A stretch of DNA of 38,182 bases from a virus, in the IMG/VR virus record IMGVR_UViG_3300020474_001130, positions 1 through 38,182 of that record; one strand, written 5' to 3'. The notes beneath the pieces were generated by a model. The model had not been told where the DNA came from. It was given only the letters and a program-made list of their open reading frames with translations, and made no database searches. A program made the translations under genes and the position numbers. Positions 469-36,866 of this stretch are shown piece after piece; the stretch's first letter is position 1; every line of letters starts with the position of its first letter.

Positions 469-1020
469 ATGAAATACGATCAAATAACAGAGGCGAAGAA
501 AAATCGCGAACAAAAACTTGAAGCAGTGAAACTACCTTACAAGTTAGGTGATCTATCTCCTGTACTTTCAAAAAATAATGTAGACTATCATTATAATGTT
601 TTAACAAAAGCATACGTTAGAAGGTACAACGAAGGTGAAGGTGATCCTGATTTTAATTATGGTGGTGCAAAACTTCATAATTTGTTTTGGAGTCAGTTAC
701 GTAAACCAACACCATCTAATAAACCAAGTGGTGCAATTAAAGAACTAATTGAAAAGAATCATAAAACATTTGATGCATTTAAAAAAGAAATGTTAAGAAT
801 GGCTATGAGCATACAAGGTTCTGGTTGGGTTTACTTGGCACGTAATGGATCGATAAAAAGGACTCCAAACCAATCTTACAAAACAGATATATTAATGCCA
901 ATCGATATGTGGGAGCATTCTTTTATGGATTATATTCCTGCCAAAGATGCAAAAAAGAAATATGTCGAAGGCATGATGAGAATTATAGATTGGGATTCAA
1001 TTAATCAACGACTATCATAG
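469..1020 (+). CDS. Fe/Mn-type superoxide dismutase
   Basis: This 183-aa protein matches the iron/manganese superoxide dismutase family, which converts superoxide to oxygen and hydrogen peroxide. It has the family opening LPYKLGDLSPVLS. All four expected metal ligands are in place: H41 (DYHYN), H70 (AKLHNLFW), and D146 and H150 (in IDMWEH). GSGWVYLARNG precedes the last pair, as usual, and the length is close to bacterial SODs. A short N-terminal extension, MKYDQITEAKK, precedes the SOD fold and resembles T4 capsid-targeting propeptides, with a possible cleavage after ITE. The gene follows a late promoter core, so it should be made late with virion proteins. Whether iron or manganese is used cannot be read from the sequence. 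Confidence 0.9.
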   Translation: MKYDQITEAKKNREQKLEAVKLPYKLGDLSPVLSKNNVDYHYNVLTKAYVRRYNEGEGDPDFNYGGAKLHNLFWSQLRKPTPSNKPSGAIKELIEKNHKTFDAFKKEMLRMAMSIQGSGWVYLARNGSIKRTPNQSYKTDILMPIDMWEHSFMDYIPAKDAKKKYVEGMMRIIDWDSINQRLS

Positions 1021-1031
1021 GAGGAAAAACA

Positions 1032-1205
1032 ATGATAACTTCAGTACAAAAATGGGTAAATGCAAGAATCAAAGAAAGAACTACTCTTGACGGAGCAATT
1101 CTTATTGGTGCAGGTATTGCCTTTTTAATTTTCAAACCGATAGCAAGTATAGTGGCATACGGAGCAATTGCCTACGGTGCTTGGACTATTTGGAAATCAG
1201 AATAA
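1032..1205 (+). CDS. Small membrane protein, 57 aa
   Basis: The ORF starts with ATG at 1032, 7 nt after a strong ribosome-binding site (TAGGAGG at 1018-1024) that overlaps the SOD stop codon. The protein has a short basic N-terminus (MITSVQKWVNARIKERTTLD) and then about 30 hydrophobic, glycine- and alanine-rich residues interrupted by a KP pair. This suggests a hairpin or one long membrane segment. It is probably co-transcribed with the SOD gene and ends one base before the convergent minus-strand gene. Function unknown; a role in the host membrane is only an inference. Confidence 0.7.
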   Translation: MITSVQKWVNARIKERTTLDGAILIGAGIAFLIFKPIASIVAYGAIAYGAWTIWKSE

Positions 1206-1493
1206 TTAAAGCGAACTTATAGGTGTGTCGCTTGATGCGTCCATTCTAAGAACTTGTCTTTGTTTAACACCTTGTTGTTGAGCAAATTTCTTTGGATTGC
1301 ATGAGTGGCACACGTGTTTATAAAAATTAGTTAGACGTTTCTTTTCAATCTTTCCTTTGGCTCTTTCAAAATCTTTTCCACAATTATCACACTGAAATAC
1401 ATAGATAGTTTTTATACGGGTGCATTTGTGCTTTTTACCCAGTTTACTCTTGCGTAATGATTCAGTTTTTATCTGCTTTTCACCTTTAAACAT
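1206..1493 (-). CDS. Small zinc-ribbon protein
   Basis: This is one of only two minus-strand genes. The start was placed at the ATG at 1493 (95 aa) because a TAAATA core lies 5 nt upstream on the same strand; an extension to 1550 is possible but reads into the HesB promoter region. The protein is strongly basic at its N-terminus and has two cysteine pairs, C35-x2-C38 and C62-x2-C65 with H60 beside the second, as in a zinc ribbon. This suggests nucleic-acid binding, as in small phage HNH-like or transcription-related zinc proteins, but no catalytic motif is visible. It converges with the 57-aa gene with no spacer. Function not known. Confidence 0.6.
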   Translation of the reverse strand: MFKGEKQIKTESLRKSKLGKKHKCTRIKTIYVFQCDNCGKDFERAKGKIEKKRLTNFYKHVCHSCNPKKFAQQQGVKQRQVLRMDASSDTPISSL

Positions 1494-1498
1494 ATACT

Positions 1499-1506
1499 TA
1501 TTTACA
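1499..1506 (-). promoter_or_regulatory. Late-promoter-like core (TGTAAATA) before the zinc-ribbon gene
   Basis: Read on the minus strand, TGTAAATA ends 5 nt before the ATG at 1493. The spacing matches the plus-strand late genes, which supports the chosen start. Confidence 0.45.
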
Positions 1507-1525
1507 TTAGCATTAGTAAAAATTC

Positions 1526-1533
1526 CATAAATA
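1526..1533 (+). promoter_or_regulatory. Late promoter core (CATAAATA) before HesB
   Basis: The core ends 23 nt before the HesB ATG at 1557. An AGGA-containing site (ATAGGA at about 1541-1546) lies between them, so this transcript should carry a normal leader. Confidence 0.55.
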
Positions 1534-1556
1534 CAAATGAAATAGGACAAAAAATT

Positions 1557-1907
1557 ATGCCAATAATGACAATGACCAACACAGCAGAAGACAAGATTAA
1601 AGAACTGTGTACAAGCAATAATAAGTGGGCAGTGCGTTTAGGCATAAAAGGCGGCGGCTGTGCAGGTTTTTCCTATGATTGGGGTTTTGCAGAACAAGAC
1701 GAAATGCAGGACAACGACGAACTAATTGAAACAGAAGGTGGAAGATTAGTGGTAGACAGCCATAGTGTAATGTACCTATTAGGAACTGAATTGGATTATG
1801 TCAATGAAGTGTGGGGTTCACATTTCGATATCAAAAATCCAAACGCAAAAAGCGCCTGTGGGTGTGGTGAAAGCATTCAGTTCGATTTGGAAAAAATAAA
1901 TGGCTAA
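1557..1907 (+). CDS. HesB/IscA A-type iron-sulfur carrier
   Basis: This 116-aa protein is an A-type carrier that receives Fe-S clusters and passes them to apoproteins. The three conserved cysteines are present: C35 in KGGGCAGFSY, and C101 and C103 in the C-terminal SACGCGESI motif. The length is standard for the family. The N-terminus reads MPIMTMTNTAEDKIKEL, so a start at M4 or M6 is possible. HesB-like genes are known auxiliary genes of marine T4-like phages. Likely clients are host proteins or the phage's own ferredoxin (21.6 kb). It overlaps the start of the giant structural gene by 8 nt, so the two are probably co-translated late in infection. Confidence 0.92.
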   Translation: MPIMTMTNTAEDKIKELCTSNNKWAVRLGIKGGGCAGFSYDWGFAEQDEMQDNDELIETEGGRLVVDSHSVMYLLGTELDYVNEVWGSHFDIKNPNAKSACGCGESIQFDLEKING

Positions 1908-4900
1908 ACAATTTGTAAACATTGGTATTGAAGGAAACGACGGGACGGGTGATAGTATCAGAGATGCCTTTAATAAGGTAAATGAAAACTTCACAGAACT
2001 GTATGCAGTATTTGGACAAGGTGGACAAATCAGTTTCACTTCATTAAGTGATACTCCTAGCACATTAGGAGCAAACAAAATTCCAGTATCTAATTCGGCG
2101 GGCAACGCAATCACAATGCGTGGCATCACTGGAACAGGTATAGCAGTAGATTTAACTTCAGATCCAAACAACATTCAATTATCAGTAACAGGAACTTCTG
2201 TTGCTTCAGACACAACACCAGGATTAGGTGGACCATTAAATGCGAATACTTACGCGATTGCAAACGTAGGTATCACACAAAACGCAGTAAACGATTTCAA
2301 TACAACACACGGAACAAATATAACTTTAGATGATGTTGTAATCACAAAAGGCTTTGCGGATCTAAATTATCTAGCAAGTTCAGGTGGAACAGGTACACTA
2401 GGTGAAATTAGAGTACGACCAGAACCAGCAAACGCAACAGACTACACAAAAACAATTACACAATATCAAAGTGGAAATTTAAATATTCCAACACATGGAT
2501 TTTCAAATGCCTCAAATGGTTTAGCATTCAAATACAAAACAACAGGAACAGCGGCAACAAATTTAACAGACAACACTGTCTACTATATTAGATTCGTCGA
2601 TGCAAACTATATCAGTTTACACTCTACTAAATCGGAAGCAACAAATGATAACGATGCCACAAGAGTTAAGATCACAGTAAGTGGTGGATCAGGCACACAA
2701 AGTATAGTTGACAACGAATACGACAGTTCACTAGATGGATTTTATCTAGGCACAGAAGCAATTCAGAGACAATCAGCAGTAAGACGTCAAGGTGACAAAA
2801 TGGCAGGTCCTTTATTCTTAAGCGACCACCCAGGAGACTTGGCAGGTGCAGGAACTCCTAACTCACAAGACGATTTACAAGCGGCTTCAAAATATTATGT
2901 TGATAATACAAGTTATGCTTCAACTAAAAATTTATTCGTCAGCACAAACGGCGACGATACAATGTCAGGTGTACCAGCAGACAAATATGGTAGATCATTA
3001 AGTTATGCATACAAAACAATAGCGAAGGCTTGTGAAAGAGCACAGCAACTTATTGAAACATCTCCAATTGAACCAGGACCATATAGACAAACTGTAACTT
3101 ATGGAAGTGGTGCTTCTAATTCAACAATCTCAACAGCGGCAGTAACCTCATCTTTCACGGCGGCACAAACGGCATTGAGAGCAGGTATGGCGGCTAACAA
3201 AACCTTTATTACAAACGAAGTAATTGGTTACCTAAACAACACATACCCAACATATTTTTACAATGTAAGTAGATGCAAAATAGATTTAGGCTTAATACAA
3301 GATTCAATTGTAACTGATGTATCAAACGGACTGACAGCAAACTTTCAGTCTATACAGGCAGGAAAAAGATATTACAGTTCTAACAGTGGATTAAAAGCAA
3401 TCAATCAACAAAGCACAGAAACATTGGCGGCAATTGCCCACGCAAAAATTGTTACAGCAAACGTTTTAAATAAATCAACATTAACATCATCAAATTCATA
3501 TCAAGGAAAATTTGCTGTATTGTCAGATGGATTTGGTGCAAACACTTTCACAATATTCACAGGAGCAAATGATTACACTCACACTTATGTTAGTGGTGGT
3601 ACAGTCACAGTAGGTTCAACAACAATAAACATTTCAACAGCAACTTACAATAAGGCTTCAGGTATAGTAACCGTTACAACAGTTTCACCGCACGGTGCAG
3701 TCGTTGGAGATATTGTACAGGTTGCCAACATCACATGGAGTTGTTCATTAGGTAATAAAATTTATCCGGAAGTTGTTGCACAAGACACAACTTTTGCTGG
3801 CACAGTCGATCAAGCGTCAAAAGATAGTGCGGCGGCAAAATTCGATGTAGTCACAAACTTAATAAACAATTACAATTACAATGTTTCACAAACAGACGGA
3901 AGCACATACACTATTACTATTTCAAATGGTGGTAATGGAAATGTTGACCAGAACGCAACAGGTAACAAAGATTTAGTTCCAGGAAAAGTTTTACGTGGTA
4001 AAACTTCTGGTGCATTAGGATTGCTTATTAAGGTTGATCAAGGAGCAACTAACGATACGTTAGAAATGTTCTTGTTAGAACCAAAAGAATTCAGTGTTGG
4101 AGAGCAAATAGAATTTGGAAACAAAGTTAAGACAACACAAATTACTATCTTTGTTGAATCTGGAATATATGAAGAACATTTACCTATACGAGTTCCTGCA
4201 AACGTTTCAATCAAAGGTGATGAGTTCAGAAGAACTATCGTAAGACCTAAAGCAGGAGTTTCAGAATCTATCTGGGCAGGCATACATTTCTTTAGAGATA
4301 CAACTTTCGACAGTTTAACACTAGCATCACAAAATTATGGTTATCATTATCTAACTGATGTAACAAATTCTTCTAGTGCGAAGAAAAACAATGCTGATAT
4401 GGACGTGTTCTTGATGAACGACGCAACTATAATCAGAAACATGACGATTCAAGGACATGGTGGATTTGCACAGGTGCTTGATCCTGAAGGACAGATATTA
4501 ACTAAATCACCTTACATACAGACAGGTGCTTCATTCAGTAGAGTAGAAAATAAAAAATTATTCAGAGGTGGTATGTTTGTTGATGGTTTCGTTGGAAATC
4601 AGGAAGTAACTATCAGCAACAAAGTAGATGCGTTCACATTAGACATAACAAGTACAGCAGGACAAGGATTATTCATACGTAAACCAGAACTACCTGCACC
4701 TTTCTACATCGCAGGAGTTAGATATCAAGTAACAGCAATTAAAAACTACGATCAAGCAAATGGAACAGCACAAATTTTATTGGCTAGTAACTCAAATACT
4801 AATAATGGTTACACAGGATCTACTCCATACAATATTATAATACAAACAGGTGGTAACAGATCATTACTTGCGAATGATTATACACAGGTCAACGACTTAG

Positions 4901-11624: not shown

Positions 11625-13154
11625 ATGGATGAAAAAGAATATATCGTTACAGTAAAAGAAGGTGTTGATTGGCGTGAAGTCCATGAAGACCTAACAAAAG
11701 ATAATCAAAAACAATTCATTCCAAATCACAAAGTACCAGTTGACGATTTAAGAGAAATCAACAAACGTAATACGCATTATCATCTTTCAGACCACGAAGC
11801 ATCAGAATTAAGAAAAGATTCTAGAATAGAGGCAGTCGAAATACCTATGATACCTCAAAAGAAAGCACTGCAAGAAGGAGACTTCAATAGAGGCGGAACA
11901 GATTCAGGACAACAAGACAACTGGGGACTATTAAGACACATAGCAGACAATAATATTTTCGGAACATCATCAAGTGATCCGGGTGGAACGTATGACTATG
12001 TGCTAGACGGCAGTGGTGTAGATGTTGTTTTACAGGATTCAGGTATACACAAAACACACCCAGAGTTTCAAGATGCAAATGGAACAAGTAGAGTTCAAGA
12101 AATAAATTGGTTTACTGCTTCAGGAGTATCAGGAAGTCAACCAGCAAACTTCTACACAGACACAGATGGACATGGAACACACGTTGCATCGACAATGGCG
12201 GGACAAAAATTTGGTTGGGCCAAAAATGCAGACATCTATTCGCAAACAATATTGGACAATCCAGGAAATACTATATCAGTTGGAAATGCAATGGACACAT
12301 TGTTAGGTTGGCATCAAGCAAAAACAAATAATAGACCTACTGTGGTCAACATGAGTTACGGTTATGTTTATTACCTTAACACAGCAACAACTCCAAACGG
12401 ATTTGGTTTTAGTAGCAGTGGTCCTTGGTACGATTTAGTCAGCGGAACATACAGAGGAACACCACACACAGATACCACTAGAAGTAATTTAAGAACACGT
12501 GGAATAAATGGTCAATTCAGAGGAAATAGCCTTTACGGTTTTCCTGCAAGAGTGTCAAGTGTTGATGCTGATATAAAACAATTGACTGATGCAGGAATAA
12601 TTGTGTGCATCGCGGCTGGTAACGACAGCATGAAGCATGATATTTCTACAGGCGTAGATTACAACAACAGTCTTGTGGTAACTGCTTTTGGAACTTGGTT
12701 TTATCACACAGGTGGCAGTCCTAATCTAAACGGCGAACCTGGTTTCAATGTTGGTGCAATAGGATTTTCAAACAGCAATGCCGCTTTCAACGAGAAAGCA
12801 AGTTTCAGTGATTCTGGTCCAGCAACCAACATTTACACTTGCGGACAAAATATCATTGGAGCATGGCCCACTACAACTTATCCTTATCATTATAATAGTT
12901 CATTTGGACAAAATAAAATTTCAGGTACGTCTATGGCGTCACCACAAATGGCTGGTATGGCGGCTTGTTTATTACAGGCACATCCAGACTGGTCACCTAG
13001 ACAGGTAATGAATTGGTTTACAAGCAATGCCACATCAACAATTTTGAACACAGGACAAGATGACGATTATACAACAAGTAATAGTGTGCATGGCGGGCCT
13101 GCAAAAGTAGGATACTTACCATTAAAAGGTCAGAAACCGTTTGGAATAAACTAA
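11625..13154 (+). CDS. Subtilisin-like serine protease (peptidase S8)
   Basis: This 509-aa protein carries a complete S8 catalytic triad: D138 in VVLQDSGIHKTHPEF, H183 in DGHGTHVAS and S436 in SGTSMASPQMAG. The oxyanion asparagine N333 sits in AAGNDS. Residues 1-75 resemble an inhibitor-type propeptide, ending in DSRIEAVEIP as in I9-like prodomains. There is no signal peptide. The gene sits among fibre genes and follows the 639-aa fibre by 6 nt, so the product is probably made late. It may act on the virion (fibre maturation) or at the cell surface during entry or lysis; which of these cannot be decided from the sequence. Cyanophage-type T4-like genomes are known to carry subtilase genes. Confidence 0.92.
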   Translation: MDEKEYIVTVKEGVDWREVHEDLTKDNQKQFIPNHKVPVDDLREINKRNTHYHLSDHEASELRKDSRIEAVEIPMIPQKKALQEGDFNRGGTDSGQQDNWGLLRHIADNNIFGTSSSDPGGTYDYVLDGSGVDVVLQDSGIHKTHPEFQDANGTSRVQEINWFTASGVSGSQPANFYTDTDGHGTHVASTMAGQKFGWAKNADIYSQTILDNPGNTISVGNAMDTLLGWHQAKTNNRPTVVNMSYGYVYYLNTATTPNGFGFSSSGPWYDLVSGTYRGTPHTDTTRSNLRTRGINGQFRGNSLYGFPARVSSVDADIKQLTDAGIIVCIAAGNDSMKHDISTGVDYNNSLVVTAFGTWFYHTGGSPNLNGEPGFNVGAIGFSNSNAAFNEKASFSDSGPATNIYTCGQNIIGAWPTTTYPYHYNSSFGQNKISGTSMASPQMAGMAACLLQAHPDWSPRQVMNWFTSNATSTILNTGQDDDYTTSNSVHGGPAKVGYLPLKGQKPFGIN

Positions 13155-18852: not shown

Positions 18853-19275
18853 ATGCCAATTGATCCAGGTATGCTAGGGCACACCAAGGAGACATATACA
18901 GTCTACCAAGCCGATACAATTACACCAATTCACGACAGAGTGTTAGTAACCGATATGGAATTCGGTGAACAAAAGACTGCTGGCGGTATAATACTTCCAG
19001 GTGATGATGGACAAGCAAGAGGCATACACCCAAGATGGTGTAGAGTACTTGCAAAAGGTCATGAAAACGATGACGAATATGAAGTTGGCGATTGGATATT
19101 GGTAGAACATGGCAGATGGACTAGAGGCTTAAAAGTTGAAATGGCACAAGAAGGCAAAATAACAGTTAGGGCAGTAGAGGCACAATCCGTTTTAGGAGTA
19201 TCAAAAACCAAACCAGATACCCAACTTACCAGAAAAACAGATTCCGAAAAACCTTACGTTGCTGAGGGCAAGTAA
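18853..19275 (+). CDS. GroES-like co-chaperonin (gp31-type)
   Basis: This 140-aa protein has the Cpn10 fold signature: ITPIHDRVLVTDMEFGEQKT, then AGGIILPGDD (mobile loop), RVLAKGHE and YEVGDWILVEHGRWTRGL. Co-chaperonins cap the host GroEL; T4 gp31 replaces GroES so that the major capsid protein gp23 can fold. The mobile-loop hydrophobic motif (GGIILP) that contacts GroEL is present. The protein is longer than GroES (about 97 aa) because of a C-terminal charged tail (QLTRKTDSEKPYVAEGK) and a 20-residue N-terminal extension. It follows the 112-aa late gene by 4 nt and is probably co-expressed with it, consistent with a role in head assembly. Confidence 0.88.
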   Translation: MPIDPGMLGHTKETYTVYQADTITPIHDRVLVTDMEFGEQKTAGGIILPGDDGQARGIHPRWCRVLAKGHENDDEYEVGDWILVEHGRWTRGLKVEMAQEGKITVRAVEAQSVLGVSKTKPDTQLTRKTDSEKPYVAEGK

Positions 19276-21623: not shown

Positions 21624-21947
21624 ATGACTTATGTTGTAAATGACAAATGTGTGATGTGTAAACACACCGACTGCGTTGAAGTCTGTCCAGTTGATTGTTT
21701 TTACGAAGGCGAGAATATGTTGGTCATCAATCCAGACGAGTGTATAGACTGTGGTGTGTGCGAGCCAGAATGTCCAGAAGATGCAATCAAATCAGATCAA
21801 GATCCAGATGGAGAACATTGGGTAGAGTTCAATAAGACATGGTCTCAAAAATGGGAAGTGATAGATACTAAAAAAGATCCACTGCCCGATTACGAAAAAC
21901 ATTCAGGGGAAGCGGATAAAATTAAGAAATACTTTAATGACAAGTAG
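21624..21947 (+). CDS. fdxA: Seven-iron ferredoxin (FdxA-type)
   Basis: This 107-aa protein is an almost canonical bacterial 3Fe-4S/4Fe-4S ferredoxin. The cluster cysteines are in the expected order: C9, C12, C17 and C21 in the first half ([14 protein letters not shown]), C25 in [11 protein letters not shown], and C40, C43, C46 and C50 in [12 protein letters not shown]. In FdI-type proteins C9, C17 and C50 hold the 3Fe-4S cluster and C21, C40, C43 and C46 the 4Fe-4S cluster (numbering shifted by one). The C-terminal extension ([18 protein letters not shown]) also matches the family. It would carry electrons at low potential. It overlaps thyX by 11 nt. Its closeness to the alphaproteobacterial type suggests host origin. 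Confidence 0.93.
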
Positions 21948-22578
21948 CCTACAAGTTGAATTTATAGATAAAATGGGAACGGATCTTTCCGTTGTAAATG
22001 CCGCTAGAGTTTCCTACGCAAAATTCAAAGACAGTTTCGAAGACAAAGACGAAAAATTAATTAAGTTTCTAGCAGAACACAATCATTGGTCACCATTTGC
22101 ACACGCAAGTTTACAATTTAGAATAAAGGCTCCTGTGTTCGTTGCAAGGCAACTTGTAAAACATCAGGTTGGTCTTGTATGGAATGAAATCAGTAGACGT
22201 TACGTGGACTATACACCAGAACTTTATGAACCAAAAGAATGGAGAGGAAGACCTCAGAATTCCAAACAAGGTTCAGATGGCACAGTGTCCATAGACTCTA
22301 ACGAGAAACACAGATTAGATATGACCATGGAACAATGCAAGATAATTTACAACTCATTAATAGGAAAAGGTATAGCACCAGAGCAGGCAAGAATGGTACT
22401 GCCACAGTCTATGATGACGGAATGGATATGGTCTGGTACCTTGTATGCTTTCGCTAGAGTATGTAATTTAAGATGTGCTAAAGATACTCAAGAAGAAACA
22501 AGAGAAGTAGCGAATCAAATACATAATATTTGTAAAGAGGAGTTTCCAATAAGTTGGAAATATTTAAAAAATGCTTAG
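21937..22578 (+). CDS. thyX: Flavin-dependent thymidylate synthase (ThyX)
   Basis: This 213-aa protein is ThyX, which makes dTMP from dUMP using FAD, NADPH and methylenetetrahydrofolate. The signature region reads [15 protein letters not shown], the phage-type variant of RHRxxSxNExSxRY that binds dUMP and [23 protein letters not shown] and the C-terminal [18 protein letters not shown] segment fit the family. It overlaps the ferredoxin gene by 11 nt and the PPIase gene by 8 nt. It supplies thymidine nucleotides for phage DNA synthesis. Whether the adjacent ferredoxin feeds it electrons is unknown; ThyX normally uses NADPH through its own flavin. Confidence 0.93.
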
Positions 22579-22912
22579 AGCCAGTCATATATTAATTGCA
22601 CACGAAGACGCAACTAGAACTCAAAGAAATGTTTCAAGGGAAGAAGCACTATTTTTGATTGCTGATATACAAAAGAAATTATTAGAAAATGAATTATCGT
22701 TCGAACAAGCCGCGAAAATGTTTAGCGATTGTCCTAGCGGAAAAGCCAACGGTGGCGACTTAGGTATTATAAAAAGATCACAAATGGATAAACTTTTTAT
22801 GATTTTCCTGGAACAATTATCAGAAGGTGAGGTAAGTGGTATTTGCTGTACTCCGTTTGGTTTCCACTTAATACGTAGAAACGTAACTATACAGATAAAT
22901 CAATCACCGTAA
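22571..22912 (+). CDS. Parvulin-type peptidyl-prolyl isomerase
   Basis: This 113-aa protein is a single PpiC/parvulin domain that speeds cis-trans isomerisation at prolines. The family opening [11 protein letters not shown], the central LSFEQAAKMFSDCPSG, NGGDLGIIKRSQM and the closing SGICCTPFGFHLIRR are all present. There is no signal peptide, so it acts in the cytoplasm. The start overlaps the thyX stop, so translation is coupled. It is one of several folding-related genes in the window and may assist folding of virion proteins rich in turns; the real client is unknown. Confidence 0.9.
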   Translation: MLRASHILIAHEDATRTQRNVSREEALFLIADIQKKLLENELSFEQAAKMFSDCPSGKANGGDLGIIKRSQMDKLFMIFLEQLSEGEVSGICCTPFGFHLIRRNVTIQINQSP

Positions 22913-28087: not shown

Positions 28088-28093
28088 ATAGAT

Positions 28094-28942
28094 ATGGATT
28101 ATTACAAAACATTAGGCGTGAATAAAAATGCATCACAAAGTGATATCAAAAGTGCATTTAAAAAACAAGCCATGAAACATCACCCGGACAAAGGTGGTGA
28201 TCCTAAACAATTTCAACAACTGAACGAAGCATACGAAGTATTAGGCAACGCACAAAAGAAAAGTCAATACGATATGTTTGGCTCTGCTAATCCACAACAA
28301 GGTGGTCCAGGAAGAACATGGGAATTTAGAAGCGATAGTTTCCCGGACGATATAGGTGATGTATTCAATCAATTCTTTGGCGGAGGCAGATCGCCCTTTG
28401 GACAACGTCAACCATTTAGAAAAAATAGAGATATCATAATACAAACTGAAATATCTTTAGAGGATGTCTTGACTGGAAAGGAAATGATTGCTACGTATAG
28501 ATTAACTAATGGCAAAGAACAAAGTGTCAATATAACTTTACCTGCAGGAGTGGATAATAACACAACTATAAAATTTCCATCTCTTGGCGACGACTATCAT
28601 TCAAATGCTCCACGAGGAGACTTAATGGTTAGAGTAAGAGTGCGTAGACATCCTAAATGGAATAGAGACGGACCAAACCTGCACACAATAGAAAAAGTAA
28701 ATGTATTTGATCTAATGATTGGAACCAAAAAAGAAATAACAACCTTAGATGGCAAGAAATTATCTATATCAATTCCTAAGGCTACTCAACCAGGAACTGT
28801 ATTAAGTATTACTGAACAAGGCTTACCAGCAAGAGGTGGTAGAAGAGGAAACATATATTTGACAATACAAGCGGATATACCAAACATTACGGATCAAAAC
28901 ACGTTAAACAAAATTAAAGGAATAAGAAATGGAACTGATTAA
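28094..28942 (+). CDS. dnaJ: DnaJ-family co-chaperone
   Basis: This 282-aa protein has a J domain at residues 1-65 with YYKTLGVNKNAS and the diagnostic HPD at 30-32, which stimulates Hsp70 (DnaK) ATPase. A short G/F-rich linker (FNQFFGGGRSPFG) follows, then the C-terminal substrate-binding domains (ISLEDVLTGKEMIATYRL, INLPAGVD-like TLPAGVDNNTTIKFP, then RGDLMVRVRVRRHP). There is no zinc-finger region, so it is a class B, CbpA-like protein. It is the first gene of an early operon with peptide deformylase and ClpA-like ATPase. It may direct host DnaK to phage proteins or alter host proteostasis. It overlaps the deformylase start by 14 nt. Confidence 0.93.
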   Translation: MDYYKTLGVNKNASQSDIKSAFKKQAMKHHPDKGGDPKQFQQLNEAYEVLGNAQKKSQYDMFGSANPQQGGPGRTWEFRSDSFPDDIGDVFNQFFGGGRSPFGQRQPFRKNRDIIIQTEISLEDVLTGKEMIATYRLTNGKEQSVNITLPAGVDNNTTIKFPSLGDDYHSNAPRGDLMVRVRVRRHPKWNRDGPNLHTIEKVNVFDLMIGTKKEITTLDGKKLSISIPKATQPGTVLSITEQGLPARGGRRGNIYLTIQADIPNITDQNTLNKIKGIRNGTD

Positions 28943-29417
28943 AGCACCAAACGAATTTTTAGAAAAACAAGTTAAGCCTTTTGACTTTGAAAACATGGAT
29001 GCAGGAAAAATATCTAATGATATGGTAGAAACAATGCTGAAGTATAAAGGTATAGGACTTGCTTCTAATCAGGTTGGAATTGATGCACAGATATTTGTAA
29101 TGGGAGAAGAAAAACCTATCACAGTTATCAATCCTATAATAACAGAAGTAGGACCTGAAAGAGTTGAAATGGAAGAAGGTTGTTTAAGTTTTCCAGGACT
29201 ATATTTTAAAGTAAAAAGACCATCAGTTGTGAGTGTCCAATATCTTGACATTGAACAAAAAGAATGTATAATAAAATTAGAAGGACTTCATGCTAGAGTA
29301 TTTCTACACGAATACGATCATCTCCAGGGTATTACATTTGATCAAAGGATATCAAAACTACGTTTGGAAATGGCAAAAAAGAAACAGGAAAAATTATTAA
29401 AGGATTTACATGGTTGA
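28929..29417 (+). CDS. def: Peptide deformylase
   Basis: This 162-aa enzyme removes the formyl group from the first methionine of new proteins. All three family motifs are present: GIGLASNQVG at 41-50, EGCLSFPG at 83-90 with metal ligand C85, and HEYDHLQG at 127-134 with ligands H127 and H131 and catalytic E128. Length is near the bacterial norm; the C-terminal lysine-rich helix is intact. Peptide deformylases are common in marine phages and are thought to support fast translation of phage proteins. It overlaps dnaJ and clpA by 14 and 8 nt, so translation is coupled in one early operon. Confidence 0.95.
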   Translation: MELIKAPNEFLEKQVKPFDFENMDAGKISNDMVETMLKYKGIGLASNQVGIDAQIFVMGEEKPITVINPIITEVGPERVEMEEGCLSFPGLYFKVKRPSVVSVQYLDIEQKECIIKLEGLHARVFLHEYDHLQGITFDQRISKLRLEMAKKKQEKLLKDLHG

Positions 29418-31656
29418 ACCAAGTGGTGATTTACAGGCAGTATTTGACAGAGCAGTAGGCAGTGCTAAAAGTTGGAGGCACGAATACGTTACTCTAGAAC
29501 ATCTACTCTTCTCTATGCTTGAAGACAAAAAGTTCAACGGCATAGTAAAAGACTTTGGTGCAGATCCAGAAGATATGAAAAGTCATTTAAAAACATATCT
29601 TGATACAAAATTAGAAAAAATTAAAATGCCGACAGGCAAATACAAACCTAAGAAGACTGTCAGTGTCGAAAGAGTTTTAAATAGAGCATTCACGCAAGTA
29701 TTGTTCAGTGGTAGAACAAACATAGACTTAACAGACGTATTCATGAGTTTATTATCCGAAACTAAAAGTTGGGCATATTATTATATCATGGAAGCACAGA
29801 TTGATAAAGATAAATTCCAAGATTTCTTACACAATGAAATGGAAGAACTGTTTGAAGACGAAATTGATGTAAGCGAAACGAAACGTGCATTAAGCAAATA
29901 CACATCTAATTTAAACAACGAAGTTAAAAAGAAAAAAATTGATCCAGTGATAGGAAGGATTGAAGAATTAAATCAAATTGCATTATCTCTAGGACGTAGA
30001 ACTAAAAACAATGTAATTTTAGTTGGTGATCCAGGAGTAGGTAAAACTGCCATCGCTGAAGGACTTGCATTTAATATTGTTAATAACACTTGTCCAGATT
30101 TCCTAATAGGCTACGAAGTTTACAATTTAGACATTGGTGCAATGTTGGCTGGTTCTAAATACAGAGGTGACTTTGAAGAACGTTTCAAAATGGTGTTAAA
30201 CGGTTTAAAGAAAAAAGGTAAAACAATTTGTTTTATCGATGAAGCACACAATATAAGTGGTGCAGGAGCAGGTGGTGGACAAAATAGCAATGACTTGGCA
30301 AACTTACTGAAGCCGGTTTTAACCAAGGGTGATTTAAAAGTTGTTGCGTCCACAACTTGGGAAGAATATAGAAAATACTTTGAAAAAGACAGAGCATTAA
30401 TGAGACGTTTCGCAAGAATAAGTGTAGACGAACCTGACAAAAATACAACACTAGAAATTTTACACGGACTCAAAAAATACTACGAAGAGTTTCATAACGC
30501 AACTATATTAGATGAAGCGATAGAATCTTCTGTTAAATTAAGTGTCAAATATCAAACAGATAAAAAATTGCCTGATAAAGCAATAGATTTAATAGACTTG
30601 GCTTGTAGTAGATTTAATTTAAAAGACCAAAACGTAGATAGAGTTATAGGCGCAGACGAAATACAATTTGAAATATCTAAACAGGTTAAAATGCCTGTAG
30701 AAAATATTGCAGAAAAAGAATCAAGCAATCTTGCAAACTTATCTAAAAACATGAACGCAACGGTGTTCGGACAGGAAAAAGCAATTAGCACAGTCGTAGA
30801 CAAAATACTTGTTGCCCAGGCAGGACTGAAACGTGATAACAAACCTATTGGTTCTTTTGTGTTTATGGGACCGACTGGTTGTGGTAAGACTGAAACTGCA
30901 AAACAATTGGCAGAGCAACTAGGAGTTCAATTAGTAAGATTTGATATGTCGGAATATCAGGAAAAACATTCTGTAAGTAAATTAATTGGTTCACCTCCAG
31001 GTTATGTAGGCTTTGAAGAAAATACAGGACTATTAATTACAAAATTACAAGAACATCAAAATTGTGTATTACTTTTAGATGAGGTTGAGAAAGCACACCC
31101 AGACGTTTCACAAATATTATTGCAAATTATGGACGAAGGAACTATACAAGGTAATAATGGTAAGTCAGCAAACTGTAAAAATATTGTGTTAATACTTACA
31201 ACTAACCTAGGTGCTGATCAACTAGAGAAAAATGCTATGGGTTTCAATCAAACTAAAGATGCTGAATATGATGACAAAGATATTAAACGTTTCTTTGCTC
31301 CAGAATTTAGAAATAGACTAGACGCAACTGTGGTATTTGCTAAACTATCTAAAGAAGTGTTAATTAAAATTGTAGGCAAATTTATGCTAGAATTAAAGAA
31401 TATGCTTAAAGAAAAAAGTGTTAAATTAGAACTTACAAACGAAGCAATTGATTATCTAGTAGAAAATGGTTACGATAGCAAAATGGGTGCAAGACCTATG
31501 CAACGTCTAATAGATGACAAGATCAAGCAACCTTTAAGTAAAGAACTGTTATTTGGTAAATTAAAGCAGGGTGGTGAGGTCAAAGTAACCGCAAATGATA
31601 AAGGTTTAGTGCTTGATATACCCGATAACGTTAAACTTTTAGAAAAACAAGCCTAG
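29410..31656 (+). CDS. clpA: ClpA-type AAA+ unfoldase
   Basis: This 748-aa protein is a full two-ring Clp ATPase: an N-terminal Clp_N-like domain (residues 1-145), AAA1 with Walker A GDPGVGKT at 206-213 and FIDEAH, and AAA2 with Walker A GPTGCGKT at 487-494 and [11 protein letters not shown], then [13 protein letters not shown] pore-loop sequence. The region that in bacterial ClpA holds the ClpP-binding (I/L)G(F/L) loop reads [10 protein letters not shown] (M610-G611-F612), so ClpP docking is plausible. There is no middle ClpB-type coiled coil. It would unfold proteins for the host ClpP. No ClpP or ClpS gene is visible here. A phage ClpA could redirect host proteolysis, but targets are unknown. 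Confidence 0.93.
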
Positions 31657-31676
31657 CATCACTAGAAGGCATATAG

Positions 31677-31684: not shown

Positions 31685-31691
31685 TAAGCAT

Positions 31692-32045: not shown

Positions 32046-32046
32046 T

Positions 32047-32918: not shown

Positions 32919-32920
32919 TC

Positions 32921-33502
32921 ATGCGTATTGTAGAAGTTGTAGAGGCTCCAAGTAAAACGGCAGTATTCGCATTTGGCAGAATGAATCCGCCAACAGCAGG
33001 TCACAAAAAATTAGTAAACACAATCATGAAACAGGCAGGAGACCATTACCTGTTTTTAGGGCCATCTAAAAGTGCCAGTCCCGCAACAGATCCTTTAACA
33101 CACGATCAAAAAGTAAAATACGCAACAGCAATGTTTCCAGGAATACAATTAGGTGACAGTTCAGTTAGAACTTGGGTACAAGCAATGCAATACCTACAAA
33201 AAAGAGGATACACAGATATCATATACGTTGCTGGTAGCGATAGAGCAAACACATTCAACACATTATTAAACAGATACAATGGCAAGGACTATAACTTCAC
33301 TTCTATTAAAACTGTAGACGCAGGCACTAGAGATCCTGACTCGCCCGGAATTGAGGGGATTAGCGCCAGTAAAATGCGTGAATTAGCGGCGAGAGGCGAC
33401 GAAAAGAACTTTATTCGTATGACGCCATTGCCCACTAAACTAGCAAAAACCATGTACGATGAAGTACGTAAAGGTATGGGTGTACAGAAGGAGCCAGCAT
33501 AA
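32921..33502 (+). CDS. Nucleotidyltransferase of the cytidylyltransferase fold (NadM-like)
   Basis: This 193-aa protein has the signature pair of the family: FAFGRMNPPTAGHKKLV at residues 17-32, with the HxGH-like NPPTAGH loop at 22-28, and GISASKMR at 146-153, matching the ISxSxxR motif. Relatives make NAD or CDP compounds from nucleotide triphosphates (NMN adenylyltransferases, CTP:phosphocholine-type enzymes). The substrate cannot be told here. The protein begins with MRIVEVVEAPSK, which resembles a T4 capsid-targeting propeptide with a possible cut after VVE. It is coded in the late cluster, 2 nt after the previous stop. Confidence 0.86.
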   Translation: MRIVEVVEAPSKTAVFAFGRMNPPTAGHKKLVNTIMKQAGDHYLFLGPSKSASPATDPLTHDQKVKYATAMFPGIQLGDSSVRTWVQAMQYLQKRGYTDIIYVAGSDRANTFNTLLNRYNGKDYNFTSIKTVDAGTRDPDSPGIEGISASKMRELAARGDEKNFIRMTPLPTKLAKTMYDEVRKGMGVQKEPA

Positions 33503-33504
33503 AT

Positions 33505-33717
33505 ATGAATATAGCGGAGTTGAAAAAACTTGCAGGTATAGGTGAAAAACAAAATGAACCATCTATGGGTGAAAATATTAGTCACACTGCAACTGAATTA
33601 AAACATAAAGAAAGACAACTAGGCTTAAAACCAGGTGATGATGAATGGTTTAAATTATGGTTTAGAAGACCATATATGCAAGGGGCACACAAAGGATTTA
33701 AAGGTAGAAAGAAATGA
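33505..33717 (+). CDS. Small late protein, 70 aa
   Basis: The ORF starts 2 nt after the previous stop. The N-terminus MNIAELKKLAGIGEKQ is a short amphipathic helix, of a type seen at the start of several marine phage late proteins. The middle (SHTATELKHKERQLGLKPGD) and the tail (WFRRPYMQGAHKGFKGRKK) are basic. No domain was recognised. It may be a small head-associated protein; function unknown. CATAAATA overlaps its own start codon and is not likely to be its promoter. Confidence 0.6.
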   Translation: MNIAELKKLAGIGEKQNEPSMGENISHTATELKHKERQLGLKPGDDEWFKLWFRRPYMQGAHKGFKGRKK

Positions 33718-34427
33718 AGATAAGAAACATATTACCAGAGTTTAAAATTGCAGGACAACCGGATCCAAAGGATGCGGCTGACTACAAAGAAAAAATGAAA
33801 ACTCTGCAACAGATTCAAAACGATCCTAAAATGAGAGATCCTCAGACTCAGGCAACTATCGCAAAGAGAAAAGAAGAACTACGTAGATGGGCAGAAAAAA
33901 ATATGCCTAAAAATGAAGACGCACCATTTGACGGTATGGGTTTAGTGAGAATGGCTTTAATGAAAAAGTTTATTACAGCAGAAGAATGGCATGGTTTAAA
34001 AGATAAGTGGAAAGGTGCAGTTGAAGAATTAGAACAAAAATATGATGATTGGCCAGAAGACCAAGGTTTTGGATCATCAGACCACAACTATGCAATTAAA
34101 GAATTAATGGAACTAGTAGGATATAAATTTGACGATCAAGATACAAGTGGTAGATTTGTTGTTTCTAAAATGCCTCCAGAGTTAGAAAAGATGGGCATAA
34201 AAAATGCAAGGATGAAAGATGCAGTGACAACTGGCGAAGACGCAGACATTGACGCACAGATGAAAGTTGATATACTACAATTCCTTAACACAAAAGTTGC
34301 AGGCATAGAAAGACAAATAGAAATGAAACCTGCATTTACACAAGAAGATATTGACAATAAAGAATTTACTTTAAAATTAATTGACTTTGTTCAAAAGAAG
34401 TTAGACGACAAACAAAAGGGTGACTAA
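33714..34427 (+). CDS. Late helical protein with propeptide-like N-terminus, 237 aa
   Basis: The start overlaps the previous stop (ATGA). The protein begins MKIRNILPEFKIAG, which fits the pattern M-K-x-x-x-I-L-P-E of T4-type capsid-targeting propeptides (possible cut after LPE). The rest is highly charged and helical (KEELRRWAEKNMPKNEDAPF, MALMKKFITAEEW, DWPEDQGFG). No catalytic motif was found. By position it is a candidate internal head protein. Confidence 0.62.
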   Translation: MKIRNILPEFKIAGQPDPKDAADYKEKMKTLQQIQNDPKMRDPQTQATIAKRKEELRRWAEKNMPKNEDAPFDGMGLVRMALMKKFITAEEWHGLKDKWKGAVEELEQKYDDWPEDQGFGSSDHNYAIKELMELVGYKFDDQDTSGRFVVSKMPPELEKMGIKNARMKDAVTTGEDADIDAQMKVDILQFLNTKVAGIERQIEMKPAFTQEDIDNKEFTLKLIDFVQKKLDDKQKGD

Positions 34428-34858
34428 TGAGATTCCAAGAACTTATAGAAGGCGCATCAATGATGCCTTACTTCAAAGACCCTAAAGACAAAACACAAAA
34501 AACTTGGACCTTCCCAGATGCTTGGCAAAAAGACGAACCATTAGATACTCCATACATGAGCAATTATAGTATGAGACAATTTCTTGATGCGTTAGGTTAT
34601 AATCCAGACTTTGAAGATAATCAACCACCTGTACCAGCAAAAGAATTTATTGCTAGAACTACGCAATGGCTTCAAAAGAATATTGACAAGCCGTCAAAAT
34701 ACGAACCAACCCAAGTGGATAAAAATCCAGGTGGACCCACAATGTACACTGGTGGTAGAGAAGAAGGGCATATGAATAAAACAATCAAATACCACAACGA
34801 ACTTGCCAGAAAAATTATTGCCAAATATCCAGAAGTAACACATTTTGGTTTTAATTAA
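34427..34858 (+). CDS. Late protein with propeptide-like N-terminus, 143 aa
   Basis: The start overlaps the previous stop (TAATG). The N-terminus MRFQELIEGASMM closely fits a capsid-targeting propeptide, with a cleavage-type LIE followed by G (residues 6-8). The remainder has a proline- and aromatic-rich region (TWTFPDAWQKDEPLDTPYMS) and a helical C-terminus (HNELARKIIAKYPEVTHFGF). Function unknown. Its stop overlaps the nucleotidase start. Confidence 0.63.
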   Translation: MRFQELIEGASMMPYFKDPKDKTQKTWTFPDAWQKDEPLDTPYMSNYSMRQFLDALGYNPDFEDNQPPVPAKEFIARTTQWLQKNIDKPSKYEPTQVDKNPGGPTMYTGGREEGHMNKTIKYHNELARKIIAKYPEVTHFGFN

Positions 34859-35745
34859 TGCGTCTTTCCGAAATAAGCAGAACTATTGACATTTACAACA
34901 AAAGGTTGTATAATGAAAATATGGAATCGATGCCTACAGTTTATTTGGATATGGACGGAGTCCTTGCAGACTTTTTTGGTGGTATAGAAAAGTTGTATGG
35001 AGTCCAACATTGGAAAGAACTTACTTCTGACAGAACGAAAGATTTAAAAACAGAAGTAATTAAAAAAATTACAGGAACAAATTTCTTTGAAACTTTGCCT
35101 AAATTTAATACAGCAGATGCATTAATTAAATTAGTGCAGGATTTTACAGGCGGTGTATATTCAATTAACACTTCACCATTAAGAGGTGATAATAAAAATT
35201 CAGCATACTATAAAAAGATTTGGATAGGTAAGCATTTACCTAAACCACAAGAAATAATTGTTACAGGACGTAAAGAATCTTACGCAATGAATAAAAATAA
35301 CAAACCAAATATACTAATTGATGATAGACCAATCAATATACAACGTTGGACAGGTAGAGGTGGATATGGTATATTGTATCAAGCAAACAAAGATTCAGTA
35401 GGCAAAGTTCAAACTGGTTTAGAAGAGTATAAGAAAAAATATTTGATCACTAAAAACGAAGGCGTTGGAATTATTACAAAGCAAAATGCAACCAAAGACA
35501 GTCCTATCGGAAGTGAATATTCCAATGTTAAAAAATTAGGATTAGGCAAAGGCAAGCCTAAAAGTATGAGAGAAAACTTTGCAGATGGCAAAGGTCCAGG
35601 CAAACCTGGTGACAGTCAGAGACATGGAATACCCAAAGGTGCAACAATGGCACAATTACAAAAAGCCGCAAAAGCACCCGGCAGGAAAGGTCAATTGGCA
35701 CGTTGGCAAATCAATATGCGAAAAGGCAGAAAAAAAGCAAAATGA
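34858..35745 (+). CDS. 5'-deoxyribonucleotidase (HAD family) with basic C-terminal extension
   Basis: The 295-aa frame starts at 34858 (TAATG overlap); a second in-frame ATG at 34921 lies 6 nt after an early promoter, so two products (295 and 274 aa) are likely. The nucleotidase domain begins with PTVYLDMDGVLADFFGG, where D31 and D33 are the catalytic HAD aspartates, and continues with YSINTSPLRGDNK, KLVQDFTGGVYS and NILIDDRPINI for the remaining motifs. Such enzymes remove phosphate from deoxynucleoside monophosphates. From about residue 195 an added region follows (IITKQNATKDSPIGSEYSNV, then FADGKGPGKPGDSQRHGIPK and QLARWQINMRKGRKK). It is basic and not part of the enzyme; similar tails occur on marine phage virion proteins. 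Confidence 0.87.
   Translation: MRLSEISRTIDIYNKRLYNENMESMPTVYLDMDGVLADFFGGIEKLYGVQHWKELTSDRTKDLKTEVIKKITGTNFFETLPKFNTADALIKLVQDFTGGVYSINTSPLRGDNKNSAYYKKIWIGKHLPKPQEIIVTGRKESYAMNKNNKPNILIDDRPINIQRWTGRGGYGILYQANKDSVGKVQTGLEEYKKKYLITKNEGVGIITKQNATKDSPIGSEYSNVKKLGLGKGKPKSMRENFADGKGPGKPGDSQRHGIPKGATMAQLQKAAKAPGRKGQLARWQINMRKGRKKAK
34886..34914 (+). promoter_or_regulatory. Consensus early sigma70-type promoter inside the nucleotidase gene
   Basis: TTGACA (34886-34891), a 17-nt spacer and TATAAT (34909-34914): a full consensus match. It ends 6 nt before the in-frame ATG at 34921. An inverted repeat TACAAC-N5-GTTGTA (34894-34910) fills the spacer and touches the -10. Confidence 0.8.
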
Positions 35746-35897
35746 TATCAGAATCACCTGATAAAAAATGGTCAGTTAGAGTGGACGAAGAAGGTAATTT
35801 TCATTGGACAGATACCAAGCACATTTATGGTAAATACAGTATAGAAGAAATACTGGAAGCAATGGATATTATCAATGGCGTTCAGAAGAGCGAATAA
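35742..35897 (+). CDS. Small acidic protein, 51 aa
   Basis: The ATG at 35742 overlaps the nucleotidase stop (ATGA). The protein (WSVRVDEEGNFHWTDTKHIY then SIEEILEAMDIING) looks like a small alpha/beta unit. It was preferred over the longer in-frame start at 35703, which would use a TTG inside the upstream gene. No function recognised. Confidence 0.55.
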   Translation: MISESPDKKWSVRVDEEGNFHWTDTKHIYGKYSIEEILEAMDIINGVQKSE

Positions 35898-36033
35898 ACC
35901 CAAACCGTATAACTCACTAGGTAAAAAGCCTAAAAAGTTTAAGAGTTATCGTGTGCTGAAAGACGGCACAGTACAGCACTGGGATAAATCAGCAAATGGC
36001 AAAAGAGGTGGCTGGCGTCCTAAGAAAGTATAA
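35875..36033 (+). CDS. Small basic protein, 52 aa
   Basis: This short ORF overlaps the previous one by 23 nt. It encodes a lysine- and arginine-rich sequence (FRRANKPKPYNSLGKKPKKF, then VLKDGTVQHWDKSANGKRGG) ending in WRPKKV. Its TAA stop is part of the late promoter core that follows. Such strongly basic small proteins could bind DNA or package with it; no direct evidence. Confidence 0.5.
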   Translation: MAFRRANKPKPYNSLGKKPKKFKSYRVLKDGTVQHWDKSANGKRGGWRPKKV

Positions 36034-36036
36034 ATA
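36029..36036 (+). promoter_or_regulatory. Late promoter core, exact T4 consensus (TATAAATA)
   Basis: This is an exact TATAAATA match. Its TAA (36031-36033) is the stop codon of the preceding gene, and it ends 5 nt before the ATG at 36042. Confidence 0.75.
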
Positions 36037-36041
36037 ACAAT

Positions 36042-36284
36042 ATGAACTACTTGACAGAACTATTAAGAATAAGAGACGACGAAGGCACTAGCGGATGGGC
36101 AAAAGAAACTGCTAAAAGTATCCTTGCTTTAAAAGACAGATTCGAATCAAAAGAAATCACAGCAGATGCATTCGTAGAAGGACTAGAATCATTACGTTCA
36201 GGTGATGAAGAAGCAGGTCCAGGTAGCATAAACAACCGTGCTGTAATAGACAACGGCATAGAACATCTGAAAAAACTAGCCTAA
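36042..36284 (+). CDS. Small acidic helical protein, 80 aa
   Basis: The protein (MNYLTELLRIRDDEGTSGWA, then KSILALKDRFESKEITADAF and VEGLESLRSGDEEAGPGSIN) is acidic and mostly helical, with a glycine-rich loop before the C-terminal INNRAVIDNGIEHLKKLA. It has its own consensus late promoter. No domain recognised; a small internal or regulatory late protein is possible. Confidence 0.58.
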   Translation: MNYLTELLRIRDDEGTSGWAKETAKSILALKDRFESKEITADAFVEGLESLRSGDEEAGPGSINNRAVIDNGIEHLKKLA

Positions 36285-36301
36285 TTTCACACACAAAATC
36301 C

Positions 36302-36309
36302 GATAAATA
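36302..36309 (+). promoter_or_regulatory. Late promoter core (GATAAATA) with RBS
   Basis: The core ends 19 nt before the ATG at 36329, with TAGGAG at 36316-36321 as ribosome-binding site. Confidence 0.65.
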
Positions 36310-36328
36310 CACACATAGGAGATAAACT

Positions 36329-36421
36329 ATGTTTAAAAAGATAGCAAAAAAAGTTAATGGTTGGTACAAATTCTCTAAATTAAGAGTACTTGTGGACAGC
36401 ATTAAAAGAAAATTTAAGTAA
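36329..36421 (+). CDS. Basic 30-aa peptide
   Basis: This very short gene has both a late promoter core and a TAGGAG site, which makes it credible despite its size. The product (FKKIAKKVNGWYKFSKLRVL, then VDSIKRKFK) is a cationic, probably amphipathic helix with K and R on one side and aromatic and aliphatic residues on the other. It could interact with membranes or nucleic acids. The stop adjoins the next start codon. Confidence 0.52.
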   Translation: MFKKIAKKVNGWYKFSKLRVLVDSIKRKFK

Positions 36422-36604
36422 ATGCGTTACAAGGACATCAAAATGGTGGAGGCACGTATTGATTATCATTACGGCTTGGATCCAGAACTAATGGTGTACC
36501 GACATAAAATAGGCGATATTTACGGCAAGAAGAACCTTAAAGTGCCTCACGCAAAATACAGCACTTCTAAAAAAGTGAAGAATTTGTTTAAACCAAGTAA
36601 ATAA
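36422..36604 (+). CDS. Late protein with propeptide-like N-terminus, 60 aa
   Basis: The ATG directly follows the previous stop. The N-terminus MRYKDIKMVEARID fits the capsid-targeting pattern, with a possible cut after MVE before A (residues 8-10). The rest is basic and aromatic (YHYGLDPELMVYRHKIGDIY, then KYSTSKKVKNLFKPSK). No domain recognised. It is a candidate small head protein. Confidence 0.58.
   Translation: MRYKDIKMVEARIDYHYGLDPELMVYRHKIGDIYGKKNLKVPHAKYSTSKKVKNLFKPSK
36596..36603 (+). promoter_or_regulatory. Late promoter core (AGTAAATA)
   Basis: The core overlaps the end of the 60-aa gene and its stop, and ends 5 nt before the ATG at 36609. Confidence 0.58.
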
Positions 36605-36608
36605 ACAT

Positions 36609-36866
36609 ATGAAGATTAGAGATATCATATCAGAAGTAGCGTCAGTAGGCGCAACAAGTGCCGCCAATATTGCAACAGTGGCATCACCACACATAGCAGT
36701 AGGCCCTGATAGATTTAAGAAATCATACACAGGTACTCCTGGAAAGTCAGGAACAAAGGCTCCAAGATTACCGAAAGTAGTACAACCTAAAAAGAAAGAC
36801 GGCACAGCCAAAGGCGCTCATGCATTACCAGGAGTGAGTATCTTCGGTGGACCGCTAAAGAGATAA
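36609..36866 (+). CDS. Late protein with propeptide-like N-terminus, 85 aa
   Basis: The N-terminus MKIRDIISEVASVG fits the T4 capsid-targeting pattern, with ISE at residues 7-9 as a possible gp21-type cleavage site. An alanine-rich helix follows (GATSAANIATVASPHIAVGP), then a basic, proline-rich tail (KSGTKAPRLPKVVQPKKKDG). A small, processed internal head protein is a reasonable hypothesis, but nothing enzymatic is visible. It ends in FGGPLKR. Confidence 0.6.
   Translation: MKIRDIISEVASVGATSAANIATVASPHIAVGPDRFKKSYTGTPGKSGTKAPRLPKVVQPKKKDGTAKGAHALPGVSIFGGPLKR

Follow-up and report, generated by a model that had tools for sequence, protein, structure and literature searches.

Candidate head-packaging tags on late proteins, including a superoxide dismutase, of an uncultured T4-like phage

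The virus record IMGVR_UViG_3300020474_001130 (38,182 bases, analyzed over its whole length and called the window here) encodes a set of proteins that begin with a common kind of N-terminal tag. Their genes form a late cluster at 32.9 to 38.2 kb, behind a large ATPase open reading frame (ORF) at 29410, together with a distant superoxide dismutase (SOD) gene at 469. The tag consists of Met, Lys or Arg, an amphipathic stretch, and then hydrophobic-x-Glu (hxE). The cluster and the SOD gene probably encode head-interior proteins of a marine T4-like phage, and the reading of their N-termini as T4-like capsid-targeting peptides cut by a protease is well supported by sequence comparison. From this we infer that the window's own proteins are packaged, cut, and delivered.

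Tagged N-termini in the window

The six N-termini listed in a first-pass annotation of this DNA are all present in the ORF translations: MKYDQITEA (469), MRIVEVVEA (32921), MKIRNILPEF (33714), MRFQELIEG (34427), MRYKDIKMVEA (36422), and MKIRDIISEV (36609). Like starts are found at 34858 (MRLSEI) and at 36964 (MKFKEM, in an ORF open to the window end), and ORF 33505 carries a variant, a second and related tag type. The genes are as follows, with a slash for the predicted cut.

469 to 1020, + strand: Fe/Mn SOD; tag MKYDQITE/ at 469 to 492, then a linker, then the core (LPYK)
32921 to 33502, + strand: cytidylyltransferase-like nucleotidyltransferase; tag MRIVEVVE/ at 32921 to 32944; phrog_3041, 3.2e-48
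33505 to 33717, + strand: 70-amino-acid protein; second tag type MNIAELKKLAGIGE/ at 33505 to 33546
33714 to 34427, + strand: module protein, function unassigned; tag MKIRNILPE/ at 33714 to 33740
34427 to 34858, + strand: GASMMPYF module protein; tag MRFQELIE/ at 34427 to 34450
34858 to 35745, + strand: 5'-deoxyribonucleotidase (NT5C); PF06941, 1.1e-6; phrog_2643, 1.2e-24; start MRLSEI; basic C-terminal part
36422 to 36604, + strand: 60-amino-acid protein; tag MRYKDIKMVE/
36609 to 36866, + strand: 85-amino-acid protein; tag MKIRDIISE/ at 36609 to 36635; capsid-arm mimic at residues 9 to 28 (36633 to 36692); Lys-containing tail
36964 to 38181, + strand: multi-module protein with a DHEVQMARSDLYKAAKYSI module; start MKFKEM; cut by the window end
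Tag stretches, predicted packaging peptides: MKIRDIISEVAS; MKYDQITEAKK (SOD start)

The scan of the window gave 50 ORFs, and expected counts for N-terminal patterns were taken from internal positions. A pattern derived from the N-termini of T4 head proteins (M, 1 to 3 residues, h-x-x-h-h-x-E, where h is hydrophobic) was matched by 4 of the 50 ORFs against 0.36 expected (p=5e-4), namely 33714 and 36609 among the six and 32047 and 32628 outside them. A relaxed form was found in 7 of the 50 ORFs, where 1.08 were expected (p=1e-4). The start pattern M[KR](x)h-x-[DEQNAS]-h was matched by 8 of the 50 ORFs against 0.44 expected, with a p value (1.5e-8) that is optimistic because the pattern was framed after the window was seen. 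These eight are the six plus 34858 and 36964, that is, ORF 469 and seven ORFs at 32.9 to 38.2 kb; none of the remaining 42 ORFs matched. The six N-termini as a set are not a product of chance.

In T4 itself, the T4-derived pattern was found in 9 of 254 ORFs (2.24 expected): IPII, IPIII, Alt, gp24, gp2, and gp61.1, and also alc, segG, and rnh. It was also enriched in the related genomes G001 (5/222, p=0.04), G006 (5/188, p=0.01), and G002 (6/281, p=0.011). Counts of plain [IL]xE and of a K/R-led pattern were weak or mixed. Plain [IL]xE with its Glu at residue 8 to 13 was only about twofold up (4 of the 37 window ORFs of at least 90 amino acids; control mean, 2.1). The p values of the K/R-led pattern were 6e-4 in the window, 2e-4 in G001, 0.054 in T4, 0.24 in G006, 0.69 in HTVC008M, 0.67 in S-SM1, and a nonsignificant 0.14 at the family level (2/24). 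An initial family-weighted profile was dropped, as it contained a merged family of 616 members.

In the T4 internal proteins IPI, IPII, IPIII, and Alt, the capsid-targeting peptide, which gp21 cuts, is likewise N-terminal and about 10 residues long, and its hydrophobic positions and (L/I)xE are spaced almost as they are here. For IPIII, the peptide is reported to suffice for loading foreign proteins, residues 4 and 7 serving in targeting and residues 8 and 10 in processing (PMC9026906). MKIRDIISE and MKIRNILPE follow the IPIII spacing except that the first hydrophobic position comes one residue earlier, and the shorter tags (ITE, VVE, LIE) have one residue fewer still. Unlike in T4, the tags here sit on a SOD, a nucleotidyltransferase, and small modules, and the cutting is predicted; a second tag type, LKKLAGIxE, occurs, and the modules occur joined in long ORFs too, where hxE lies at their edges. 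Propeptides of head proteins are reported to be cut after Glu by the prohead protease in phiKZ and SPN3US too, with the difference that phiKZ uses an S/A-x-E motif and that 6 of 8 N-terminal propeptides of SPN3US are 111 to 254 residues long (PMC9026906, PMC10052503).

The tag is lost and the cut site kept inside long ORFs

In relatives, the same modules either stand alone as tagged ORFs or are embedded in longer ones. At 75% identity or less, alignments of tagged proteins with N-terminal homologues began at residue 1 to 3 in 727 of 1178 pairs, against only 52 of 748 pairs with internal copies. In 573 distinct pairs with internal copies, 90 of the alignments began at the tag's Glu, 89 began two residues earlier, at the hydrophobic position, and 6 began between these, with a lesser peak at -3 relative to the Glu (57). 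Of 112 tagged N-termini, 61 had a median alignment start no more than 3 residues from the Glu.

At internal junctions, Glu was found at P1 in 92 of 144 distinct junctions and in 4 to 26 at every other position from -12 to +8; these junctions represent 28 module groups, some of which overlap, and their query side was selected for hxE. The group-weighted share of hydrophobic residues was 0.57 at P3 and 0.10 to 0.31 elsewhere. The 144 strings remained from 6066 pairs without a tag filter, reduced to 2498 by a start and Glu filter, to 1355 by removal of junctions with tag-like upstream sequence, and to 1168 by a register check. An initial grouping in which modules had been merged was redone.

The amphipathic tag travels with the N-terminus of the polypeptide, and hxE travels with the module edge, as would be expected if a targeting peptide preceded a protease site. 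The tag is separable from the domain behind it, as seen in this tag loss and in the nucleotidyltransferase N-termini described below. This arrangement suggests that the long modular ORFs encode head polyproteins.

The individual modules follow this scheme. Homologues of 33714 start with MKLRDFIRE/FK or MKLIDFLRE/FK, and in relatives the module lies within ORFs of 357 to 844 amino acids. Alignments of 34427 with its internal copies start at the Glu, which is residue 8 (with L087, they start at residue 4), and the copies have VSE/ or VKE/ directly ahead. For 36422, 12 matches gave 5 distinct N-termini, 4 of which keep hxE. The LAGI-type start of 33505 was present in 76 of 3127 ORFs of a redundant set against 2.0 expected, in two families that by our reading are unrelated (the 33505 family and some SODs); tblastn with the LAGI peptide gave no match. 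Relatives have the deoxyribonucleotidase and the nucleotidyltransferase in one ORF, and both domains are present in L067. ORF 36964 had no Pfam family above the cut-off and one weak PHROG match (E, 0.016).

The polyvalent proteins of other phages are also multidomain and predicted to be packaged and injected (PMC5512222). Modules of the window type differ in being short and in having a T4-type tag, and the peptidase domain that is the commonest hub of polyvalent proteins was absent at E 0.1 from the nine ORFs scanned, 36964 included. Two long modular ORFs by the cargo cluster (L141, 1845 to 3818; L121, 7080 to 9530) have ParB-like and nuclease PHROG matches.

A tagged mimic of the capsid arm

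The 85-residue protein 36609 resembles, directly behind its predicted cut, the start of the mature major capsid protein gp23 of relatives. The mimicry was first spotted by eye, and the gp23 stretches were selected at that point; the cut in gp23 of G002 (RKWLNE/TATAGSTSAGNVATL) and G005 (KYLAE/AASAGATGAGNVAAL) was placed by analogy with T4. When the G002 stretch was compared with the window, ORF 36609 was the best match (score 41, next 26; 2 of 200 shuffles reached 41). In G001 the best match was the homologous ORF 35165 (52 against 28, 0/200 shuffles). Elsewhere in G002 and G005, the best match to the genome's own gp23 stretch was in each case a small ORF that bears a tag and lies close to the cargo cluster (58 against 30, 0/200 shuffles, and 43 against 27, 1/200 shuffles, respectively). 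The G006 mimic was weak (10/200 shuffles), and the best one in S-SM1, SSM1_197, was untagged (1/200 shuffles, 5/200 with a shorter stretch).

T4 gp23 is cut after residue 65. The best T4 match to the mature N-terminus was gp61.1 from residue 11 (65 against 28, 0/200 shuffles), directly behind MKTFKEFIKE and in register with the cut. The protein, hypothetical in its record, is thus built like 36609, with tag MKTFKEFIKE/ and then a mature-gp23-like stretch, but it follows the gp23 of Straboviridae and not the marine gp23. A genome search with T4 gp23 found gp61.1 in 3 of 6 other Straboviridae (E, 1.8e-4 to 6.8e-4), with matches beginning at gp23 residue 61 to 65. In 4 of these 6 phages, the 61.1 module forms the C-terminal part of a protein of 151 to 158 amino acids, with RVEE, LFE, LIE, or ITE at the junction ahead of it; with LIE, the register is off by one residue. 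In Aeromonas phage PX29 (L258, 96326 to 96415), a stretch resembling gp23 residues 100 to 129 was seen in a second ORF, apart from the capsid gene.

Mimics of Straboviridae scored 58 to 102 on Straboviridae arms and 22 to 29 on marine arms, and marine mimics scored 52 to 65 on marine arms and 21 to 35 on Straboviridae arms. Within a lineage, the phage's own arm was the best in only 3 of 9 mimics. The last 25 residues of the mimics have 5 to 11 Lys plus Arg and 0 to 6 Asp plus Glu.

The nucleotidyltransferase and a homologue found in virions

The window nucleotidyltransferase scored 19 bits against PF01467 (CTP_transf_like), under the cut-off of 21, and the L067 homologue scored 30.8 bits. From 76 ORFs with a GRxNPP motif, 30 distinct N-termini were drawn, and 25 of them have hxE ahead of the first strand; three of the other five begin at the fold, and two are short starts without hxE. 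Identity to cyanophage proteins was 38 to 42% among the matches listed. In isolates, the start ended in hxE in 6 of the 7 looked at: S-SM1 (MKKFSAFLNE/A), Syn9 (MKKFSAFLSE/A), S-SSM7 (KSFGQFLTE/A), P-TIM68 (MKSFTSFFTE/A), S-PRM1 (ILE/G), and Melnitz (MKKFSEIIE/A). For comparison, T4 IPIII starts with MKTYQEFIAE/A.

Sullivan et al. (2010) reported the putative cytidylyltransferase T4-GC190 in purified S-SM1 virions (PMC3037559), which is consistent with the head-cargo reading. T4-GC190 is SSM1_190 in the S-SM1 record; it belongs to the same enzyme family as the window protein and has a T4-type tag. The window protein differs in that about 80 residues separate tag and enzyme in SSM1_190.

The superoxide dismutase

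Both SOD domains are present in ORF 469 (Sod_Fe_C, 6.4e-19; Sod_Fe_N, 1e-8). In 15 homologues chosen by us from 80, a few rows of which are trimmed near the start by the coordinates used, H41, H70, D146, and H150, which we take to be the metal ligands by Escherichia coli numbering, were invariant, and so was the tag residue E8, behind which there are gaps of differing length. In the predicted model (mean predicted local distance difference test [pLDDT] score, 91.6; residues 1 to 8, <50), the tag is outside the fold, and PDB matches reaching the N-terminal part place query residue 15 to 18 opposite chain residue 3 to 7.

Upstream strings from 80 loci gave 43 distinct ones, 37 of which have [ILVF]xE with the Glu 10 to 15 residues ahead of the core; all 43 have the looser form [ILVFMT]xE. 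Some SODs instead have the LAGI-type start of ORF 33505 (L067, L072, and L074 to L079), and in L027, L031, and the L074 group, the SOD is flanked by cargo-cluster genes. Its tag and gene context make packaging of the SOD plausible and somewhat favored. That it would protect from superoxide at entry is a guess, and a doubtful one.

Among the literature matches listed, nothing on SOD in virions was found; in the main text of the MIJ3 paper, the word "superoxide" does not occur and four virion proteins are named. SODs of jumbo phages were rejected as a comparison (Callisto has MNDSIKKYISIAEAA, and Vibrio phage 2.275.O has no tag). The untagged SOD of the latter (L200, 2495 to 3064) has a C-terminal extension ending in MLDESVNIRHLINFISK. 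Upstream of the window SOD, positions 25 to 453 resemble the C-terminal part of the UV endonuclease UvdE (9.8e-5, just under the cut-off), and the UvdE-SOD pair was found again in relatives.

Lineage and head genes

In G002 (268 kb), 14 window ORFs between 23739 and 36964 have homologues at 223 to 208 kb, with the gene order preserved. This genome encodes gp17, gp18, gp20, gp21, and gp23, and no match to 33714, 34427, or the SOD was seen in it. G005 (243 kb) encodes a SOD with a LAGI-type start, gp20, gp21, and gp23. A gp21-type protease was found in 3 of the 11 relatives searched (G002, G004, and G005). We take the window, G001, and G006 to be fragments.

Proposed mechanism and its weighing

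The tag would dock the precursor into the prohead core, and a gp21-type prohead protease would cut after the Glu of hxE. The trimmed protein would stay in the head with the DNA and could be delivered at infection. The long ORFs of relatives, which have a single tag in front and hxE at the edges of many modules, would encode head polyproteins that are processed into separate parts. Once cut, 36609 would begin like the mature major capsid protein and continue into a Lys-containing tail, and T4 gp61.1 would do likewise. It may then dock on the inner capsid wall at the sites of the capsid-protein arm, and its tail may touch DNA, which is the weakest step.

The first-pass annotation had proposed capsid targeting and an enzyme-cargo system. 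The former gained from the separable tag, hxE at module edges, the S-SM1 virion homologue, the arm mimic in register, and gp21 in the syntenic G002. The latter has to be narrowed: enzyme cargo does not describe several of the small proteins, one of which mimics the capsid arm and others of which are exchangeable modules.

Several observations weigh against this reading. Beside the enrichment in G001, G006, and G002, the T4-derived pattern was borderline in G005 (5/304, p=0.097) and not enriched in HTVC008M (2/185) or S-SM1 (2/211). HTVC008M also had no mimic (score 28, 106/200 shuffles), and its nucleotidyltransferase starts with MKTLKELLRKK, without the Glu. The deoxyribonucleotidase 34858 has no clear hxE. 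The SOD had no match in G002; no match to gp17 to gp23 was found in the window, G001, or G006. The tail of T4 gp61.1 is nearly neutral (7 Lys plus Arg but 6 Asp plus Glu), which weakens the idea of DNA contact. Alignment starts on internal copies have a further lesser peak 9 residues behind the Glu (35/573), and the tagged queries were selected for hxE, with 1229 raw pairs that had a tag but no hxE set aside. Glu within modules was conserved about as often (388/660) as junction Glu (92/144), so that conservation of the Glu by itself proves little and the argument rests on position, P3, and tag loss. The ORF before the SOD, which is untagged, starts like UvdE of L006 in 42 of 74 rows.

The best-surviving alternative, which we hold possible but less probable, is that the nucleotidyltransferase and module proteins are in the head, as proposed above, and that the SOD, whose N-terminus only looks like theirs, acts in the cytoplasm. 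The distance of about 30 kb between SOD and cluster in the window and the 6 of 43 upstream strings that require the looser hxE fit this explanation; the SODs that bear the cluster's second tag type, or have cluster genes on both sides (L027, L031, and the L074 group), speak against it. It is compatible with packaging of the rest.

It is unlikely that the tags serve for docking of some other kind in the infected cell, such as in a multi-enzyme complex, with hxE in a helix, nothing packaged, and the SOD an ordinary auxiliary metabolic gene. Packaging in this phage is a prediction from sequence, an Fe-S biosynthesis gene lies near the SOD in the window, and the UvdE-like ORF starts and the Glu conservation inside modules given above point the same way. 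This explanation does not account for the tagged homologue reported in S-SM1 virions, for T4 gp61.1 and the G002 and G005 mimics in register with the gp23 site, or for the annotation of 5 of the 9 T4 pattern ORFs as head or DNA-end proteins. Chance combined with translation-start composition (A-rich early codons giving Met-Lys/Arg, and hxE being common) is very improbable, because tag loss in internal copies and the capsid-arm register are not expected from early-codon bias, even if plain [IL]xE is only about twofold up and one strict family test gave p=0.14.

Neighboring genes in the window

The following genes were grouped as one late region.

1557 to 1907: Fe-S biosynthesis protein
18853 to 19275: Cpn10
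21624 to 21947: ferredoxin
21937 to 22578: ThyX
22571 to 22912: PPIC-type isomerase
28929 to 29417: peptide deformylase

The ORF at 29410 to 31656 looks by eye like a Clp ATPase, and a subtilase (11625 to 13154; Peptidase_S8, 3.8e-36) is among the large ORFs. A search for the late-promoter sequence KATAAATA gave 8 sites against 6.7 expected, which is chance level (13883, 17001, 18480, 23712, 25929, 36029, 36302, and 36862). All eight are on the + strand with an ATG 5 to 22 bases downstream, and they may be T4-type late promoters.

Implications

Among the matches listed in a literature search, in which gp61.1 was not asked about, titles and abstract openings did not mention such tags in marine phages. 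The reading of long ORFs as head polyproteins and the tagged capsid-arm mimic appear to be new. We tentatively propose, as an idea with the odds against it, a shell-to-DNA adaptor: in T4-like phages of several families, a tagged small protein would go into the prohead and, once cut, would consist of a copy of the capsid arm and a Lys-rich tail. In marine phages it would be one bead of exchangeable head polyproteins, whose other beads, together with tagged enzymes such as the SOD, would be carried into the next host.

T4 gp61.1 thereby gets a proposed role, as a likely gp21 substrate with a copy of the matured gp23 start. The tag would provide a sequence rule for head-packaged proteins in uncultured marine T4-like phages, and delivery of enzymes with the DNA becomes testable for the SOD, the nucleotidyltransferase, and the deoxyribonucleotidase.

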